Shown: positions 4,510 through 35,021 of the stretch, in pieces
Numbering within the stretch: the stretch's first letter is position 1
Layout: each line of letters starts with the position of its first letter
Source: a virus
Direction: 5' to 3' (one strand)
DNA length: 35,239 nucleotides
Virus record (IMG/VR): IMGVR_UViG_3300031565_010406
Location: 1-35,239 of that record
Notes under the pieces: model-generated
The model's database searches: none
The model's input: only the letters and a program-made list of their open reading frames with translations
What the model was told of the DNA's origin: nothing
Translations under genes and position numbers: made by a program

Positions 4510-4833
4510 GTTCATTAAGGGGTCCACCCACCACCACACACCAGGGGGAAAAACTTCTCCTTTCCTCGTTCCCATGGCTCTTTCGCGTTTGTTGCGTTTC
4601 TTTCCGAGTAATTTTTTTGCCCGTCCCCGCCCCTTCCCGCCAGGGACAGCCAATGGGGGGCACAACGGAATATTTTATAGCCCCCCTTGGCTGCCCTGCT
4701 CTGCCCCCACTTCGTGCGGGAGTCGCCTTACAGGGCGGTTCGGGGTTCCCTGCGGCGGTGCCGGGCTTGGTTCCTTGTAGTGATCAATCGTTTGCGGCTT
4801 CGCTCGTCAGGCTTTTCGGTGGGAGGTGGTGTC

Positions 4834-5514
4834 GTGTCTGGTGTGTCCTCTGTCCGCTCTGTCCGTGTCGCCGTTGTGGGCTCTCGCTCGTTGCCGCCGT
4901 CTCTGGTGGGCCTCGTGGCCCCGTTCGTGGCCGCGGTGGTGGCGTCGGGTGCCGCCGTCGTTTCGTCCTGCTGTGTGGGCGCGGATCGGCTCGTTGTCTT
5001 GGCGGCTCTTCGCCTCCTGCCCGCGGCCTCGCTGCCCCGCCGTCTCGTGGTGTTCGCCGCCTTTGGCCCGGGTGGCGCTGGCTCGTCGTCCGCCGTGTCC
5101 GCCGTGGCCGCCGTGCTCCGTGCTGCCCGGCGTGGTGCGTGCGTGCGCTGGGCTTGCGGCCCGGCCCCGCGTGTCCCGTTTCGCGTCCGCCTGTTCCGCC
5201 GTGCCCTCGCTCTGGTTGGCTTTGTCGCCGCTGGTGCGCCCGGCTCGTGTCTCGTGGCCGTCCTCGCCTCGCCGTCCTCGCGTGGCTCGTTGCGCTCCTG
5301 CGCCCTGGCTGCGCGCGCCGGTGTGCCCGTCGGCGCCCTCTGCGCCTTCTCTGGCCCGCCGCTGCCCGTCTTGTCCGGCTCTGGCCTCTGGTCGCGCGTG
5401 CCCTGCCTGCCGTTGCCCGCTGGCGTGTCCGCGTGGCGCTGGTGCCGCGTCGCCCCCGCTCAGCTGGCGTTGCCCTGGTCGGAGGCGTGGCCCGAGGATG
5501 TGTCGTCTTGGTAG
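4834..5514 (+). CDS. SLOG-like (DprA/YspA-type fold) protein, adenine-free gene
   Basis: 226 residues from GTG at 4834, preceded by GGGAGG. SLOG-fold signs, in order: RVAVVGSRSLPPS (residues 11-23, first strand and nucleotide-binding loop), GAAVVSSCCVGADR (39-52, equivalent to the VSGGA.GAD motif), and a SRGSLRSCALAARAGVPVGA segment (the G(T/S)..A...GkPv motif). SLOG proteins bind nucleotides or their derivatives and include DprA, LOG and sensors in anti-phage systems. The coding strand has a single A from 4825 to 5461. Residues 1-209 therefore use only Ala, Cys, Phe, Gly, Leu, Pro, Arg, Ser, Val and Trp, plus one Asp (residue 51, in the GAD motif). Because A-free DNA has no stop codons, all three forward frames are open here, so the frame was chosen by motifs, not length. 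Function unknown. Confidence 0.75.
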   Translation: MSGVSSVRSVRVAVVGSRSLPPSLVGLVAPFVAAVVASGAAVVSSCCVGADRLVVLAALRLLPAASLPRRLVVFAAFGPGGAGSSSAVSAVAAVLRAARRGACVRWACGPAPRVPFRVRLFRRALALVGFVAAGAPGSCLVAVLASPSSRGSLRSCALAARAGVPVGALCAFSGPPLPVLSGSGLWSRVPCLPLPAGVSAWRWCRVAPAQLALPWSEAWPEDVSSW

Positions 5515-5687: not shown

Positions 5688-5903
5688 ATGTATAGCCGCT
5701 ACCAGTGTCAACCGGCCCGCTTCGGTGAGGCCCTCGCGTCTCTCGTTGCCCGCGAGGAGAGGCGCAGCCCGCAACGCCGTGCGGCTGTGAGATCGGCAGC
5801 GCGTCAATCGTTGCCCTACGACGTGGAGATCAGCCAGGCGACCGCCGTCGCGTGGCACCTCCGCCAGACCCGCCGACAGGCAGGAGAGGAGCAGACAGCA
5901 TGA
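5688..5903 (+). CDS. Small basic hypothetical protein
   Basis: 71 residues. The ATG follows GAGAGGAGAGGAAG. It is Arg/Gln/Ala-rich with no motif I recognise. It starts the rightward run of accessory genes, and its stop codon overlaps the start of the SWIM gene (ATGA), which supports coding and translational coupling. The rich Arg content would suit nucleic-acid binding, but nothing in the sequence proves it. Confidence 0.6.
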   Translation: MYSRYQCQPARFGEALASLVAREERRSPQRRAAVRSAARQSLPYDVEISQATAVAWHLRQTRRQAGEEQTA

Positions 5904-6346
5904 GACCCGCGACTATCGCCGCCCTGGTCGAGACCGGAGAACAGAACGTGCCCGCCCTCGCGTCGAGGCTACACAAGGCCGCGGAGATGCTCCGCAGCAA
6001 CGCCCCCTCCAAGGTGAACGTCCCGGCCAGCAGGCTCTGGCACGTGCCCTCGCAGGCGCGCGCGGGAGTCGTCTATCTGGTCGACCGCCTCGACCAGTCG
6101 TGCACTTGCCCCGACTACCGCCAGCACTGCAATTGGAGGAGCAGCGGCCGCCACAATGCGAACCCCCGTGGCGCGCCCGCCGGGTGGTGTAAACACCGCC
6201 TCGCCGTCGAGATGATATGCCGCCTCCGTTGCGAGCCAGACCCGCAGCCGGACCCGCCGCCAGTCCCGGCCCCCGGTCTGGTGTGGCAGCGCGCCAGCCT
6301 CACCGTCGAGGCGGCCCAGGCAGGAGAAATGGCCCTGCTGTCGTAG
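5900..6346 (+). CDS. SWIM zinc-finger protein
   Basis: 148 residues, starting at the ATG that overlaps the preceding TGA. Residues 58-103 form a SWIM-type zinc finger: a YLVDRLDQ strand, then CTC (Cys68, Cys70), and CKH (Cys97, His99) followed by the RLAVEM helix. The spacer between the two ligand pairs is longer than usual and Arg/Asn-rich. SWIM domains bind DNA or proteins and occur in recombination-linked proteins and mobile elements. The C-terminal part is Pro-rich (about 111-130). The 78-nt gap to ardC and the same strand suggest one operon. Its partner is unknown. Confidence 0.8.
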   Translation: MRPATIAALVETGEQNVPALASRLHKAAEMLRSNAPSKVNVPASRLWHVPSQARAGVVYLVDRLDQSCTCPDYRQHCNWRSSGRHNANPRGAPAGWCKHRLAVEMICRLRCEPDPQPDPPPVPAPGLVWQRASLTVEAAQAGEMALLS

Positions 6347-6423: not shown

Positions 6424-7248
6424 ATGGGAAAGGCAGACGAACTCAGAGAGCAGATACAAGAGCAGATGGCAGCCCTAGTAGCCAGCGCCGGAGATGTCAG
6501 AGCGTCGGAGCAGTTCCAGCAGTGGCTTGCCCACGTCGCCAGGTTCCACCACTACAGCGCGGGCAACGTCCTGTTGATATGGATGCAGCACCCAGGTGCA
6601 ACACGGGTGGCCGGGTACCGCCGATGGCAGGCGATGGGCCGACAGGTCAGAAAGGGAGAAAAGGGAATAGGGATACTTGCGCCCATCCCGTTGACCGCCA
6701 CGACCGAAGACACCGAGACCGGCGAGAGCAAGCAGGTGCAAACCGGCATCCGCTTCAAACCCGTGCACGTTTTCGACGTCAAACAGACCGACGGCGACGA
6801 ACTGCCCGAGCCTCCAGACTGGAAGGGCGAAGGCAGAGACGGACGCCTTGAAACCGCCCTGCTCGACTACGCCGCCGCCCTGGGAATCGAGGTTCGCCGG
6901 GAGGAGTCGGCCAGCGGAGCCCTCGGTTGGTCACGGAAGGGCACCATGGCATACAGCGACAAGGGCAACGTCCCCTTGACCATAGCCCACGAACTAGCGC
7001 ACGAACTCGCCCCCGACTGGCGCGCAGAGGTGGGCAAGCGCGTCACGGAATCACTGGCCGAACTGGTGGCCGCCATCGTCTGCCTGCATTTTGGCGTCGA
7101 CGTCGGCGACAGCCCCGCGAACTATGTCGCCACTTGGACCGACGACCCCGCCGACCTCCTGCGCAACATCGAGAGAGGGCAGCGCGTCGCCAGCCAGATC
7201 ATCGACAACGTGGAGACCAGACTAGCCGCCGAAAACAACCGCCAGTAA
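6424..7248 (+). CDS. ArdC-like anti-restriction protein
   Basis: 274 residues, ATG after GGAGAGAAGAACT. The N-terminal ArdC-type ssDNA-binding domain is clear (about 30-90): YSAGNVLLIWMQHPGAT, then V.GYRRWQAMGR.V.KGEKGI.ILAPI. The C-terminal half carries the metallopeptidase motif HELAH (189-193) with Glu residues in VTESLAEL (about 207-214) as a likely third zinc ligand. ArdC proteins of conjugative plasmids protect incoming DNA from restriction. Here the gene shares an element with its own restriction-modification island, so it could also protect the element when entering new hosts. Fold assignment is firm; activity on this element's own enzyme is unknown. Confidence 0.88.
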   Translation: MGKADELREQIQEQMAALVASAGDVRASEQFQQWLAHVARFHHYSAGNVLLIWMQHPGATRVAGYRRWQAMGRQVRKGEKGIGILAPIPLTATTEDTETGESKQVQTGIRFKPVHVFDVKQTDGDELPEPPDWKGEGRDGRLETALLDYAAALGIEVRREESASGALGWSRKGTMAYSDKGNVPLTIAHELAHELAPDWRAEVGKRVTESLAELVAAIVCLHFGVDVGDSPANYVATWTDDPADLLRNIERGQRVASQIIDNVETRLAAENNRQ

Positions 7249-12190: not shown

Positions 12191-13168
12191 ATGCGAGTCA
12201 TATCCCTCTTCAGCGGCGCGGGCGGACTAGACTTGGGCTTGATCCAAGCTGGCCACACAGTTCTGTGGGCGAACGAACTGGACAAGGATGCCGCTGCGAC
12301 CTACCGACTGAACATCGGGCCTCATATTGTGGAGGGCGACATCGGAGAGATCGGCCTAGACACGATGCCAGAGGCCGACGTTGTTGTCGGCGGCTTTCCG
12401 TGCGAGGGGTTCTCCAGAGCGAACCTCAGGCGTTCTTTGGAGGATACTCGCAACAACCTCTACGTCTACTTCGTGCGCACCGTTCGCACAAAGCAGCCGC
12501 TGTACTTCCTGGCGGAGAACGTGCGCGGTCTATTGACACTTGCGGGGGGCGCCGCAATCCGACGTATCGTGCGGGATTTCGGCGAATCCGGGTATCGGGT
12601 GCAGTATCAGCTGTTCAACACTGCGGACTATGGCGTGCCACAAACCCGCCAGCGAGTAATCATCGCTGGAACCCGAAACGACCTCCCCCCCGACCTGGAC
12701 TACATCTTTCCGCAACCCACCCATTCAAGGGACGCACAGCCCGATCAGTCGGCGGTGCTGCTGCAGGATGCATTGCTGCCTTGGGCCACCTGCTGGGAAG
12801 CCCTCAAGGATGTGCCTGAGCCTGATGCCGCTGACTGCAGTCTAGCCAATCATGTGTACTCTAGGTACAAGGTGACGAACCGGGACTTCACTGGACACCG
12901 TTGGACTGACCCGAGCAAACCCTCCCCGACCGTCCTGGCCCGAGGCGACGGCGGCGGCGGCGTCTGCGCACTGCAGCACCCCCTGAATCACAGGCGGATG
13001 AGCGTTCGCGAAACCGCCATTATCCAGACGTTTCCGACGGACTTCGGGTTCGTCGGCAGCATGAACTCGTGCTATAGGCAGGTTGGTAATGCTGTGCCAG
13101 TGCTCTTTGCCAAGCGTCTCGGCGAGCAGCTGGCGGTGCTCGAGGAACGCCTAGAGACATGCGCGTAG
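12191..13168 (+). CDS. DNA (cytosine-5) methyltransferase 1
   Basis: 325 residues. Motif I is LFSGAGGLDLG (6-16), motif IV GGFPCEGFS with the catalytic Cys, motif VI ENV, motif VIII QTRQRV, and motifs IX-X RETAIIQTFP ... RQVGNAVP. Motif IV reads PCE where nearly all m5C enzymes have PCQ, so activity may be altered. A short target-recognition region lies between motifs VIII and IX (HVYSRYKVTN ... LARGDGGGG). It overlaps the next methyltransferase by 10 nt. Two m5C enzymes in tandem commonly serve an asymmetric target, one per strand. The ribosome site is weak. The target sequence cannot be read from the protein. Confidence 0.92.
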   Translation: MRVISLFSGAGGLDLGLIQAGHTVLWANELDKDAAATYRLNIGPHIVEGDIGEIGLDTMPEADVVVGGFPCEGFSRANLRRSLEDTRNNLYVYFVRTVRTKQPLYFLAENVRGLLTLAGGAAIRRIVRDFGESGYRVQYQLFNTADYGVPQTRQRVIIAGTRNDLPPDLDYIFPQPTHSRDAQPDQSAVLLQDALLPWATCWEALKDVPEPDAADCSLANHVYSRYKVTNRDFTGHRWTDPSKPSPTVLARGDGGGGVCALQHPLNHRRMSVRETAIIQTFPTDFGFVGSMNSCYRQVGNAVPVLFAKRLGEQLAVLEERLETCA

Positions 13169-14103
13169 CCTCCCTGTTCTCGGGCGCCGGCGGAATGGAC
13201 CTGGGTTTCATTCGCGCAGGTCATCGGGTTGTGTGGGCCATCGATTCGTATGAGGATGCCGTGGAGACCTACCGCCGCAACATCGGTGACCACGTCATAC
13301 TCGGTGACATCCGCGGGGTGGCCTCCAAGGAGGTGCCCGATTGCGATATTGTCATGGGTGGTTTCCCCTGCCAAGGCTTCTCTGTGGCCAACGTGAGCCG
13401 CCGGGAGGAGGACTCACGCAACCTGCTCTATCTAGAACTGCTGCGTATCATCACGGACAAGCAGCCGATCTTCTTCGTTGCTGAGAATGTCAAAGGCATC
13501 CTGTCGCTGGCTAAGGGTAGGGTCGTAGCGATGATCATGGATGATTTTGCCAGCGCCGGTTACCGTGTAGCCTGCAAGGTGCTCAACGCGGCGGACTACG
13601 GCGTCCCCCAGACGCGGGAGCGCGTGATACTCGTGGGCGTCCGCCTCGACATCGGGATCCATGTCAGCTTCCCAGAACCGACCCACGCCGACCCAGATTC
13701 CGAGGCACAGCCAAGCCTTTTCGACACACGGATGAAGCCCTGGGTCTCCATCGGCGAAGCGCTGGCCCATATACCCGAGCCCGAAGATGCGCCTGACTTG
13801 CCAAATCACACTTACTCGAAGTACAAGCTTCGCTTCAACAACTACCTCGGACACCGGCGCGTGGACCCGGGCAGACCGGCTCCAACTGTGACTGCCAGGG
13901 GAGATGACCGAGGTGGTGTGGTCGTACTGCATCATCCTGGCAACCACAGGCGAATGTCCTGCAGGGAGATGGCAATCGCACAGTCCTTCCCGATGGGATT
14001 CGTGTTCGTGGGTTCGCAGACGTCAGTATACCGGCAAGTTGCCAATGCTGTTCCACCGCTCATGGCAGAGGCGATAGCACGGGCTTTTCCGCGCGAGGTC
14101 TGA
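13159..14103 (+). CDS. DNA (cytosine-5) methyltransferase 2
   Basis: 314 residues, starting at ATGCGCGTAG, which overlaps the end of methyltransferase 1. All motifs are canonical: LFSGAGGMDLG (I), GGFPCQGFS (IV), AENV (VI), QTRERV (VIII), and the RQVANAVPP end (X). Its recognition region resembles that of enzyme 1 (HTYSKYKL..., TARGDDRGG), so the pair arose by tandem duplication. Unlike enzyme 1 it keeps the normal PCQ. Its stop overlaps the start of the endonuclease (TGATG), which couples translation of modification and restriction. Confidence 0.94.
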   Translation: MRVASLFSGAGGMDLGFIRAGHRVVWAIDSYEDAVETYRRNIGDHVILGDIRGVASKEVPDCDIVMGGFPCQGFSVANVSRREEDSRNLLYLELLRIITDKQPIFFVAENVKGILSLAKGRVVAMIMDDFASAGYRVACKVLNAADYGVPQTRERVILVGVRLDIGIHVSFPEPTHADPDSEAQPSLFDTRMKPWVSIGEALAHIPEPEDAPDLPNHTYSKYKLRFNNYLGHRRVDPGRPAPTVTARGDDRGGVVVLHHPGNHRRMSCREMAIAQSFPMGFVFVGSQTSVYRQVANAVPPLMAEAIARAFPREV

Positions 14104-15335
14104 TGAAACCACCAGCCAAGCCGTTCCCGGGATATAGATGGCGCTGGGCAACCCTTACCCCCACAGAGGGACTCAATGATCCACCGGTCTACTTCGGTGT
14201 ACTCAGGGCGCTGGCCAAGCTAGAGGACATCAAACCCAGCGACGAGCGCCTCATGCAGACACTGAAGCTCATTCAAAAGGAGACCAAGACCAGTGTCACA
14301 CTCGCCCGTAGCACCCAGAGGAACATCATTCGCAATTCTGGGCAATACTGGAAAGCCCTTGGTTTGTTGAAGCACACCCAGCCGGGCATCAGGTTGACCT
14401 CTCTGGGCCGAGAGCTTGCCGAAGGTAACATTGCGCCCACTGAGTTCGCCATAACGATGGTCAAGACGCTGGAGCTTCCCAACCCTCGTATCGAACGCGC
14501 CAGCGAGCAGCGAAAATGGGGTGAGCTTAGAATAAGGCCGCTCCTGCTCGTCCTCGATATTCTTGCGGCATTGGACGCCGCCGGCGGTGGAGCCGAAGCG
14601 TATCTGACGCCGTTCGAGCTAACCAGAATCGTCATACCGCTCGCCGGCGAGGCGGCCCCGGTCTTCCGGCACGTGGAGGCGATTGAACTATATCGCGGCG
14701 AGGAGTTGGATCTGAGCGCGTGGCCCGACTGTGCTCCAGGCGCCAACGACGCGCGAATGGCCAGAGAATTCCTCCTGTTCCTTGAGCACTACGGCTTGTG
14801 CACCAGGGAGCAGAATGGGCATGCTCAGCACCAAAAGTACTTCCTGAGCGCTCTTGAGCCTAGCGAGGTGCAGGAGCTACAGCAAGTTGACACGTCGGGG
14901 CTCACCACCACGGAGGCCGTTGAGAGAGTAAGGCAGACTCTCCTGCCGGCGGCAGCCGACCGCAAACGGCTCTCAACAACCGTCTTGACGCGCCCTCTCC
15001 AAGCCAGGTTCCGTCTCGCGGTCCTGTGTGCATACAGCTCGACTTGCCTGTTCACTGGAGCCTCGTTCCCGCCGGTACTCGAAGCGGTGCACATAGTGCC
15101 TGTAGCTGCAAGCGGTGCAGACGCGCTCGACAACAGCCTGTGCCTTCGAGTTGACGTCCATCGTCTGTTCGATGCGGGGCACCTGAGGGTAGAACCCTCC
15201 GGGCGCGTGCATCTATCGGACGGAGCACGAGGTTCGGGCGACTACACCAGTCTGCCTCCACAGATTCCCATCCCCGAATTCGTTTCGATTGACAACATCA
15301 AGTGGCGCTGGAACTACGGCTCGCTTGGGGACTGA
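14103..15335 (+). CDS. HNH restriction endonuclease
   Basis: 410 residues; the ATG overlaps the stop of methyltransferase 2. The C-terminal nuclease domain (about 310-385) has LEAVHIVP, D.LDNSLCLR.DVHRLFDAGHL and a following GRVHLS strand, the pattern of HNH enzymes from restriction systems. The N-terminal 300 residues contain helical segments and probably read the target. Its position right after two methyltransferases makes it the cutting partner of this system. Regulation by order (modification first) and translational coupling is likely. Target sequence and cut position unknown. Confidence 0.85.
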   Translation: MKPPAKPFPGYRWRWATLTPTEGLNDPPVYFGVLRALAKLEDIKPSDERLMQTLKLIQKETKTSVTLARSTQRNIIRNSGQYWKALGLLKHTQPGIRLTSLGRELAEGNIAPTEFAITMVKTLELPNPRIERASEQRKWGELRIRPLLLVLDILAALDAAGGGAEAYLTPFELTRIVIPLAGEAAPVFRHVEAIELYRGEELDLSAWPDCAPGANDARMAREFLLFLEHYGLCTREQNGHAQHQKYFLSALEPSEVQELQQVDTSGLTTTEAVERVRQTLLPAAADRKRLSTTVLTRPLQARFRLAVLCAYSSTCLFTGASFPPVLEAVHIVPVAASGADALDNSLCLRVDVHRLFDAGHLRVEPSGRVHLSDGARGSGDYTSLPPQIPIPEFVSIDNIKWRWNYGSLGD

Positions 15336-15376
15336 CCAGGCAACCGGGAGTTCTAGCGACTGGACGGTCGTCTCAG

Positions 15377-16075
15377 ATGCGGGAGCTTGAGTTCGGCGCA
15401 CCCAAGGAGGATTTCCACGCCGCCCTCCTTGACTGGTTCGAGTCAGAGAAACGAGATTTCCCTTGGCGACGGACGCGAGACCCCTTCAAGATTCTCATCG
15501 CTGAGAGGCTGTTGCAGCAAACTCGCGCGACACCAGCCGTGGTTAGCGCATATAAGCGCCTAGTGCGCAGATACCCTACTCCCGCCCGTCTCGCCACCGC
15601 ACAACTGTCTGACCTTGAACACATTATACAGCCGTTGGGGCTGCTCTTTCGGGCAAAGCAGCTGCGCCGCATGGCCAATGAGCTAGTGGACCGTCACTCT
15701 GGCGGCGTACCATGCAGCTACGGGGAGCTGATGGAGCTCACGGGCGTTGGTGAGTATTGCGCATCGGCTGTCTTGAGTTTTGCTTTCGGAGAGGATGCGG
15801 CGGTCGTCGACACCAATGTCGGGCGTTTTCTGTACAGGCTCTTCGACATCAGTCAACCCTTCCCTGCTAACCCTTCGCGGACGAAATGGCTCCATAAGGC
15901 GGCCACGGCGCTGCTGCCTCCTGGTCGCTCCAGGGCCTTCAACCTTGCTGTGCTCGACTTGTGTGCCAAGGTCTGCGCGCCGTCGCATCCGACTTGCGGC
16001 GTCTGCCCCGTGCACGGATTCTGCCGCCACGCTCCGCCGCAGAGCCCCGCGGCCAGTTCACGGGATGACCAGTAG
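15377..16075 (+). CDS. HhH-GPD DNA glycosylase with 4Fe-4S cluster (T:G mismatch type)
   Basis: 232 residues from ATG 15377; an upstream frame start would overlap the endonuclease and add unrelated residues. It is of the MutY/Nth superfamily: FPWRRTRDPF (28-37), Glu43 in AERLLQQTR, hairpin LTGVGEY (121-127), catalytic Asp145 in VVDTNV, and a cluster motif C-x6-C-x2-C-x5-C (Cys200, 207, 210, 216). Position 127 is Tyr, not the Lys of bifunctional Nth. It lacks MutY's C-terminal NUDIX-like domain, and its length matches the Mig.Mth-type thymine glycosylase of a plasmid-borne m5C system. It probably removes T from T:G pairs made by deaminated 5-methylcytosine, replacing the usual Vsr nuclease. 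An A:G-specific activity is the alternative. Confidence 0.85.
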   Translation: MRELEFGAPKEDFHAALLDWFESEKRDFPWRRTRDPFKILIAERLLQQTRATPAVVSAYKRLVRRYPTPARLATAQLSDLEHIIQPLGLLFRAKQLRRMANELVDRHSGGVPCSYGELMELTGVGEYCASAVLSFAFGEDAAVVDTNVGRFLYRLFDISQPFPANPSRTKWLHKAATALLPPGRSRAFNLAVLDLCAKVCAPSHPTCGVCPVHGFCRHAPPQSPAASSRDDQ

Positions 16076-33386: not shown

Positions 33387-33507
33387 CTACTTCGACCGGT
33401 TGATGCAGGAGCACGAGGACGCGTTTGTCTGGTTCATGCTCGTGATCGGTGGGGGGCTGGTGCTGAGGTTCGTGCTGGAATCCCTCGGGGCGTGGCCGTG
33501 GGCGTAG
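33370..33507 (+). CDS. Tiny membrane protein between repressor and integrase
   Basis: 45 residues from GTG 33370 after GGAGGAGAGGC, overlapping the repressor end by 17 nt and the integrase start by 16 nt. N-terminal amphipathic part (WKGSYFDRLMQEHEDA), then one membrane span (VWFMLVIGGGLVLRFVLES). The ribosome site and nested overlaps suggest translational coupling. Expressed in the lysogen, so superinfection exclusion is a reasonable guess. Confidence 0.5.
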   Translation: MRWKGSYFDRLMQEHEDAFVWFMLVIGGGLVLRFVLESLGAWPWA

Positions 33508-35021
33508 CCCTGATCTACGTCCGCCGCTCCATGGTCCGCTACGAGGCCGACCGCGCCAGCCCTGAGCGCCAACTGGACCACTGCATGCGCGTCTGCGACG
33601 AAAAAGGCTGGACCTACGAGGTATACCAGGACGCCGAAGGACACCGCTCCGGCCGCTCCGAGAAGCACCGCCCAGAGTGGCGCCGCCTCAAGACGCAGCT
33701 GCCCCGGCCCGAAGTAGTCGCCGTCGTTGTGAGCTCGCTGGACAGGGCGTCGCGGTCTCCCAGGGACTTTTTCAACTTCGTCGACCTCCTGCAAGAGCAC
33801 AGCGTCGAGCTCGTCAGCGTCAAGGAGCGCTTCGACACCACGACCGCCATAGGCAACGCCTTCCTCGCCATGCTGATGGTGGTCGCGTCGCTTGAGTCCG
33901 ATCTCGCCAGCGAGCGCATCTCAGACAGTGTCCGCCACCGACGCACCAAGGGAGTCCACGTCGGCCTCGCCCCATTTGGCTACCGCCGCGAGGACGGCCA
34001 CCTCATCCCCGGCGAGGACGCGCGAATCGTCACGCTCCTGGTCGAGTTGTACGCCACCGGCAGCTACAGCTTTTCACAGCTGGCCGTCGAGCTCAACCGC
34101 CGCGGCTACCGCTTCCGAGACCGCTACGGAGCCAAGCCCTTCACCAAGGTCTCCGTCCGCAGCGTGCTCCAGAACGCCTGGCTCTATGCCGGCAAGATTC
34201 CAGTCGGCCGTGAGCGAGACCGAGCCTACTCCGAGATCTACGACGGCGACCACGAACCGCTCATCAGCGACGAACTCGCCGGCCACGTCACCGACGTGAG
34301 ACGAAACAGGACCAAGGGCACAAGCCGAAGCCCATCCAGGCTGTACCTCTTGACCGGCTTGCTCTACTGTCAGGACTGTGGAGCGCGGCTGTGGGGCAGG
34401 CGGCGGGGCAGGGGAGGCGACCCGACCTACCGGCACCCTGGCCCCGCCTGCCAGCCCTACCGTGGCTCCTTCCCGGCTGAGCGGCTGGAAGCCGAGGCGG
34501 TGGCGCTACTCGACGGCCTCGCCCTTCCGACTCAGCTGCAGGATATGATCAGGGACCGCGTCAAGGAGCGAATCGAGGCCGAGCCCAGGAATGCGGACCT
34601 ACTCAGGGAGCTACAGGCAAAGCGCGCCAAGCTCATACGCCTGACCGAGATGCGGCTTGAGGGCGACATCGACAGAGACGCCTTCCACGCCCGCAAGGCA
34701 GAGATCACCGCCGCGACCCTGGACCTGGAAACCCAACTCGGACTCGGCTCGCACGATCCGGACAGTTCCTTGCAGCGCATCACCGACCTGGCCCGCGTGG
34801 CCCGTGACGGTTCGCCGTCTCAGCGGCGTGGTGTCCTGCTCTCCATATTTCAACGACTCGAGCTCAGCATCGAACGCGGCGAGATCGTCAAGGTGGTGCC
34901 CAAACCGTGGTTCCGCACTTTCTTCCCCCACCTCGTGGAAGCATGGGACCATGCGGACACTCCGCGCGCCGGAACCCCTCCAGGCGCGCCTCTTACTTCC
35001 CCCGTTGGAGGCACTGGATAG
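33492..35021 (+). CDS. Large serine integrase
   Basis: 509 residues from GTG 33492 (GTG 33498 is an alternative). The resolvase domain (about 1-150) has catalytic Ser in YVRRS (residue 13), the Arg/Ser pair in SSLDRASRSPRDF, and the TTAIGNAFLAMLMVVASLES helix with ERISD.V. A recombinase domain (about 165-270) follows. Then a zinc-ribbon (GLLYCQDCGARLWG with a later Cys) and a coiled coil (about 370-415: LQAKRAKLIRLTEMRLEGDI). The last residues differ between integrated and free forms because the attachment core lies in the gene: residues after GAP are host-derived here. It catalyses integration at the tRNA-Arg site. Confidence 0.93.
   Translation: MAVGVALIYVRRSMVRYEADRASPERQLDHCMRVCDEKGWTYEVYQDAEGHRSGRSEKHRPEWRRLKTQLPRPEVVAVVVSSLDRASRSPRDFFNFVDLLQEHSVELVSVKERFDTTTAIGNAFLAMLMVVASLESDLASERISDSVRHRRTKGVHVGLAPFGYRREDGHLIPGEDARIVTLLVELYATGSYSFSQLAVELNRRGYRFRDRYGAKPFTKVSVRSVLQNAWLYAGKIPVGRERDRAYSEIYDGDHEPLISDELAGHVTDVRRNRTKGTSRSPSRLYLLTGLLYCQDCGARLWGRRRGRGGDPTYRHPGPACQPYRGSFPAERLEAEAVALLDGLALPTQLQDMIRDRVKERIEAEPRNADLLRELQAKRAKLIRLTEMRLEGDIDRDAFHARKAEITAATLDLETQLGLGSHDPDSSLQRITDLARVARDGSPSQRRGVLLSIFQRLELSIERGEIVKVVPKPWFRTFFPHLVEAWDHADTPRAGTPPGAPLTSPVGGTG
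34976..34991. repeat. attR: 16-bp attachment core inside the integrase gene
   Basis: CCCTCCAGGCGCGCCT, identical to 2946-2961. The preceding base is C here and T at attL; the following is C here and A at attL. Everything right of 34991 is host sequence. Confidence 0.85.

Follow-up and report, generated by a model that had tools for sequence, protein, structure and literature searches.

One ORF of the window, by which is meant the whole stretch of 35,239 nt that was analysed, has lost nearly all adenine from its coding strand, and it is a real protein gene encoding a standalone DprA-type SLOG protein. Its relatives indicate that a lasting pressure keeps A out of the gene (Table 1). A conserved gene nearly without one of the four letters constitutes a natural experiment on the forces that act on a message, and no description of such A-purged genes was found in the open-access literature, which covers part of the whole.

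Table 1. Positions of the A-purged ORF, its signals and associated genes.
Feature	Position	Strand	Remarks
Inverted repeat, GC-rich, upstream of A-purged ORF	4641..4698 (arms 4641-4661, 4680-4698)	+	seen in sequence; predicted stem
Shine-Dalgarno sequence GGGAGGTG	4821..4828	+	5 nt before GTG (4834)
Adenine-purged ORF, standalone DprA-type SLOG protein	4834..5514	+	226 aa; GTG start, TAG stop
GAD motif codons GGC GCG GAT	4978..4986	+	4985 is the sole A within 4825-5461
Stretch without A, 476 nt	4986..5461	+	base count
Gene downstream of A-purged ORF, CxC...CxH (SWIM-like) motif	5900..6346	+	motif by eye
ArdC-type antirestriction protein	6424..7248	+	PF08401, E=1.4e-15; same strand as A-purged ORF
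Large serine recombinase of the phage	33492..35021	+	PF00239/PF07508
Three-gene module with overlapping Shine-Dalgarno sequences (Margulisbacteria)	L085:9324-11501, L086:9201-11165, L088:7512-9719

Composition of the ORF and identity of its product

The base count of region 4825-5461 is A1/C248/G228/T160, and besides the 476-nt stretch the ORF region has an A-free run of 160 nt (4825-4984), the next longest run of the window being 46 nt. The 160-nt run begins immediately 3' of the A in the Shine-Dalgarno sequence, and each depleted relative has a GGAGG-type site in the corresponding position. Six A are left in 4825-5514 with the stop codon counted, four of them in the C-terminal tail (one CAG, two GAG and one GAT). 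No codon out of 226 ends in A and 19% end in T, and there are no A-bearing synonymous codons where about 36 are expected from the window's own synonymous codon usage (log10 P about -19). The neighbouring genes have 16-27% A, with 3-18% at the third position (A3), and none resembles the A-purged ORF. The sequence-only reading, which had reported one A in 4825-5461 and the 476-nt run, was exact in its counts, and it was also right about a ten-letter alphabet (among residues 1-209 only Asp51 falls outside the ten A-free letters), about normal neighbours, and about a loss of A from the coding strand that is not high GC. Its claim that A was retained only for the fold fails, given the A of the C-terminal tail and the replacement of the Asp in a second phage (SGACAF, L004/L093).

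One-strand runs of 150 nt or more without A are present in 94 of 398 Pseudomonadota genomes (GC-rich genomes), and among the cases listed those inspected by eye look like low-complexity genes rich in Lys/Glu/Ala/Pro read on their reverse strand, or like assembly junk. In the window, by contrast, it is the coding strand that lacks A, and the protein is non-repetitive and folded. An antisense gene is ruled out, as the sense frame aligns over its full length to normal-A homologues. No unusual mRNA structure is predicted in the ORF (z +0.7).

The A-free run lacks stop codons in all frames as well as TpA and ApT steps, and the gene might thus have been selected for the absence of internal -10 boxes, ATG starts, stops and AT-rich silencer sites on both strands, a silence that follows from the sequence. 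Such a selection does not require the loss of A from GCA or CCA, however, and the AT-rich members keep T-runs, and this explanation is considered improbable.

The window protein matches PF02481 with 17.2 bits (E=0.003, cut-off 29.6), and the relatives L054, L061, L065, L066 and L042 match above the cut-off with 33-60 bits. A profile built from the family retrieves solved DprA. The predicted structure of L042 (pLDDT 81) matches DprA and ShosA in Foldseek with E about 1e-6 and TM 0.6-0.65, and that of the window protein (pLDDT 66) again has ShosA/DprA as its best matches (E 3e-4); ShosA 8zva and several DprA structures head the list of matches. Both the GSR loop (GSRSLP) and the GAD motif are found in the window protein, and most members retain the Asp of GAD. 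The SLOG fold proposed from the sequence is therefore supported by the structure match and by the relatives' PF02481 matches, and is of the DprA type. The Rossmann/SLOG domain is common to the window family, DprA/Smf (PF02481) and ShosA of ShosTA, but unlike these the family consists of a standalone domain of about 150-226 aa with a coding strand purged of A. Phages and satellites carry DprA-like proteins, which function in defence and as members of toxin-antitoxin pairs (PMC9122126). No ShosTA-type PRTase partner was recognised by eye beside the ORF in the window or beside its depleted relatives.

Depleted and normal relatives

A-depleted homologues number 13, with a coding-strand A content of 1-8%, and are located in the second phage, a Deltaproteobacteria MAG and nine Margulisbacteria-type genomes, staying A-poor even in AT-rich hosts. 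An A-free motif pattern found those of L004/L093 (second phage), L042 (Deltaproteobacteria MAG) and the Margulisbacteria-type MAGs. Another motif pattern matched 33 viral loci, all of them without A depletion, protein searches with the window ORF gave no match in viral contigs, phages or plasmids, and more scans of viral, phage and plasmid sequences gave no extra member. The statement in the sequence-only reading that similar genes exist in other mobile elements is borne out by the second phage and by the relatives in distant bacteria, and its proposal to compare per-strand A among homologues separates the 13 depleted genes from sister homologues with normal A.

A profile search of Margulisbacteria found homologues in 22 of 74 genomes, falling into a depleted group (A 3-8%, A3 0.02-0.07, T3 0.33-0.59) and a normal group (A 17-29%). 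Genome G053 carries both, a depleted copy with 7.1% A and a normal homologue with 27.5% A that are 45% identical, and this normal-A copy in the same genome rules out overall GC or genome bias. Relatives in the phylum to which the Deltaproteobacteria MAG belongs, L098/L100, share about 59% identity with the depleted copy and have 11% A; the depleted L080 has 1.5% A against 10.9% in L100 at 59% identity. The profile match of the depleted L090 is split across two frames, and this gene may be broken. In the tree a single branch with modest support (83/74) parts the depleted from the normal set, and one origin of the depleted set is thus possible.

In Margulisbacteria A makes up 0.12-0.28 of the 240 nt upstream, falls to 0.00-0.08 over the first 270 nt of the ORF and is back at 0.21-0.37 3' of the stop; the depletion is limited to the ORF and has sharp borders. 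Transcription that spares ATP, one of the reasons suggested earlier, fits poorly since the upstream leader and the flanks keep normal A in these bacteria. Avoidance of restriction, also suggested, finds little in the sequence either, with GC-only palindromes near expectation and only CCGG somewhat low.

The second phage differs in that an A-poor ORF and a further A-poor stretch lie upstream of the SLOG gene. The ORF (L093:7002-7331) encodes 109 aa with 5 A in 330 nt, its 3' end overlaps the Shine-Dalgarno sequence of the SLOG gene, and it has no relatives in viral contigs. The stretch upstream of the A-poor ORFs (L093:6660-6890) contains a repeat of roughly 60 nt twice, with GC palindromes.

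Third-position A is 0-7% in the depleted relatives, with T up to 59% in AT-rich hosts. The third-base synonymous differences between them comprise 315 among C, G and T and 45 involving A, dN/dS is 0.09-0.36, and synonymous sites are near saturation with A still mostly excluded. The expectation that A would stay depleted at synonymous sites while the Asp of GAD is kept holds in its first part (315 vs 45) and not in its second, as the Asp is lost in the second phage. A-free stretches of 82 nt are found in the SLOG gene only, without exception, in G003, G052 and G053, which were listed completely; in the other genomes, some of them covered in part, G051 and G002 have one further place each and G004 has none. 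The loss confined to the ORF, the exclusion of A from synonymous sites and the A-free stretches at the SLOG gene together point to a lasting pressure on the gene and not to genome composition.

An A-specific mutator, based on reverse transcription or editing, could have hit the locus until an absorbing A-less state was reached, and would explain why all codon positions lose A while third bases still change between C, G and T. The borders in Margulisbacteria match start and stop and not a wider DNA segment, however, and purifying selection acts on the protein, which leaves this explanation unlikely, though ahead of selection for regulatory silence. If it were correct, the gene would reveal an A-specific mutator hitherto unknown. 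No reverse transcriptase is present in the window, G006, G003, G004, G051, G053 or G069 (the phage records may be incomplete), and the two found in other genomes are not near an A-purged gene. The target of a diversity-generating retroelement was likewise rejected, as RVT_1 matched nothing in the window record or in G006.

Forces that may act on the message

In ten depleted Margulisbacteria genes, which are related and have non-independent sites, third-position A after a purine is found at 3/156 sites compared to 239/490 in normal homologues, and after a pyrimidine at 60/275 compared to 180/468; the counts cover these ten genes, since hardly any A is left to count in the phage genes. None of the 70 A at codon position 1 (0/70, 33 alignment columns) follows a purine, whereas 11 would follow G in synonymous shuffles. 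Normal homologues deviate weakly in the same direction (94 G observed, 123 expected). The avoidance spans codon borders and is invisible to tRNAs, and thus points to the nucleic acid, which favours a cause at this level rather than tRNA supply.

Supply of tRNAs is nevertheless the foremost of the rival explanations, although an unlikely one. The ORF would here shun tRNAs with U in the anticodon and remain translatable after a defence nuclease has destroyed them. The A-free codons require only U-free anticodons, the host genome G068 encodes a U-free tRNA for every such codon (46 tRNA loci), the depletion is limited to the ORF, and the specificity of LshCas13a, which cleaves tRNAs with anticodon uridines and prefers U-rich ones, fits (PMC11042736). 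With LshCas13a or anticodon nucleases an A-free ORF would use only the spared tRNAs, but such nucleases would not be expected to leave a rule on purine-A that crosses codon borders. The Margulisbacteria genes avoid A according to the base that precedes it, and CAG is enriched and not avoided (73/1722 codons vs 48/2350).

Least probable is a role for the template strand, which would be free of T (in Margulisbacteria of TT/TC), resist dipyrimidine lesions or T-directed damage and stay transcribable. TT and TC are the main sites of UV lesions, and purine-A in the coding strand equals TT/TC in the template, precisely the avoided steps. However, template CT (coding AG) is enriched, CC is still abundant and the leader is unpurged, and some hosts are probably subsurface MAGs where UV is unlikely.

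RNases with adenosine or purine specificity are known, as Pfu Csx1 and Ton Csm6 cleave after adenosines and other Csm6/Csx1 enzymes after purines (PMC7192623, PMC9704534), and escape from an RNase is therefore ranked first, as the best, albeit unproven, of the reasons that the sequence-only reading had proposed. The message would have been purged of A to survive a putative adenosine-directed nuclease during host shut-off, which is a tentative explanation. The pressure would act on the mRNA, which loses A, in Margulisbacteria chiefly the purine-A dinucleotides, and the purged mRNA would survive and still be translated while the ribonuclease is active. Candidate nucleases are HEPN RNases cutting after adenosines or purines, and A-specific toxins that abortive defence sets free. 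With its strong Shine-Dalgarno sequence and the coupled downstream genes, the element might then make the DprA-like protein during shut-off. As a conjecture, it could protect or handle incoming DNA, or be an antitoxin or ligand sensor like ShosA.

Against RNase escape, the leaders and downstream cistrons have ordinary A, and the whole transcript is thus not protected; the purine-A rule is seen in one related group, and normal homologues show the same tendency weakly. Cas10 is present in 6 of 74 Margulisbacteria genomes, and the nine that carry a depleted gene all lack it. These numbers are too small to decide the matter, and type III CRISPR in particular is not implicated. We know of no enzyme that recognises what is purged in this gene.

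CpG and UpA dinucleotides are suppressed in viral RNAs, and motif avoidance against ribonucleases is also familiar. The A-purged gene would resemble these cases in a purge, at synonymous sites, of the steps read by host RNA-level defences, but differs in that nearly a whole letter is lost, from one gene, in a DNA phage or mobile element, rather than one dinucleotide throughout a viral genome. It is conceivable, though more doubtful than the escape of this one message, that mobile elements of unrelated hosts carry a previously undescribed class of RNase-proof genes, with coding sequences freed of adenosine, or at least of purine-A, and messages that stay intact and translatable while a host ribonuclease acting at adenosine destroys other mRNA. 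If the pressure is an RNase, a defence activity could be named by the footprint in its target, and a design rule would follow for expression under RNase attack.

Operon, leader and gene neighbourhood

Several Margulisbacteria loci share a tight operon order of depleted SLOG gene, a Cys-rich protein of 57-68 aa and a large serine recombinase, and the Shine-Dalgarno sequence of the next gene sits within the SLOG C-terminus (KEV codons). The SLOG gene may plausibly help to establish or excise the element. R-M-like genes are among the neighbours of the module. The leader upstream of the depleted gene in L081-L092 (e.g. L084:9718-9968:-) has a hairpin whose arms vary among relatives but keep their complementarity; GGGTGACA and an A-tract/GCT box come after it. 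One copy has a folding z of -2.3, and Rfam gave no match to the leader, only two tRNAs beside the genes searched.

The window is an IMG/VR virus record with terminase- and portal-like genes, judged by eye. The inverted repeat upstream of the A-purged ORF may possibly be a structured leader or a site, with a z of only -1.3 for the whole region. The product of the gene directly downstream has no match in Pfam, and a similar gene is found in the same place in the second phage (L004/L093). Two adjoining cytosine methyltransferase-type genes (the second recognised by eye) are located in 12191-16075 together with an HNH protein and an HhH-GPD glycosylase, possibly an R-M unit plus its mismatch repair enzyme. 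Within 54-2510, three proteins end with a PEP-CTERM-like tail (VPEP...LLLGSGLAGLAGYATLRWR), a feature that made Chloroflexota suspected hosts of the phage and that is unusual for a phage record.
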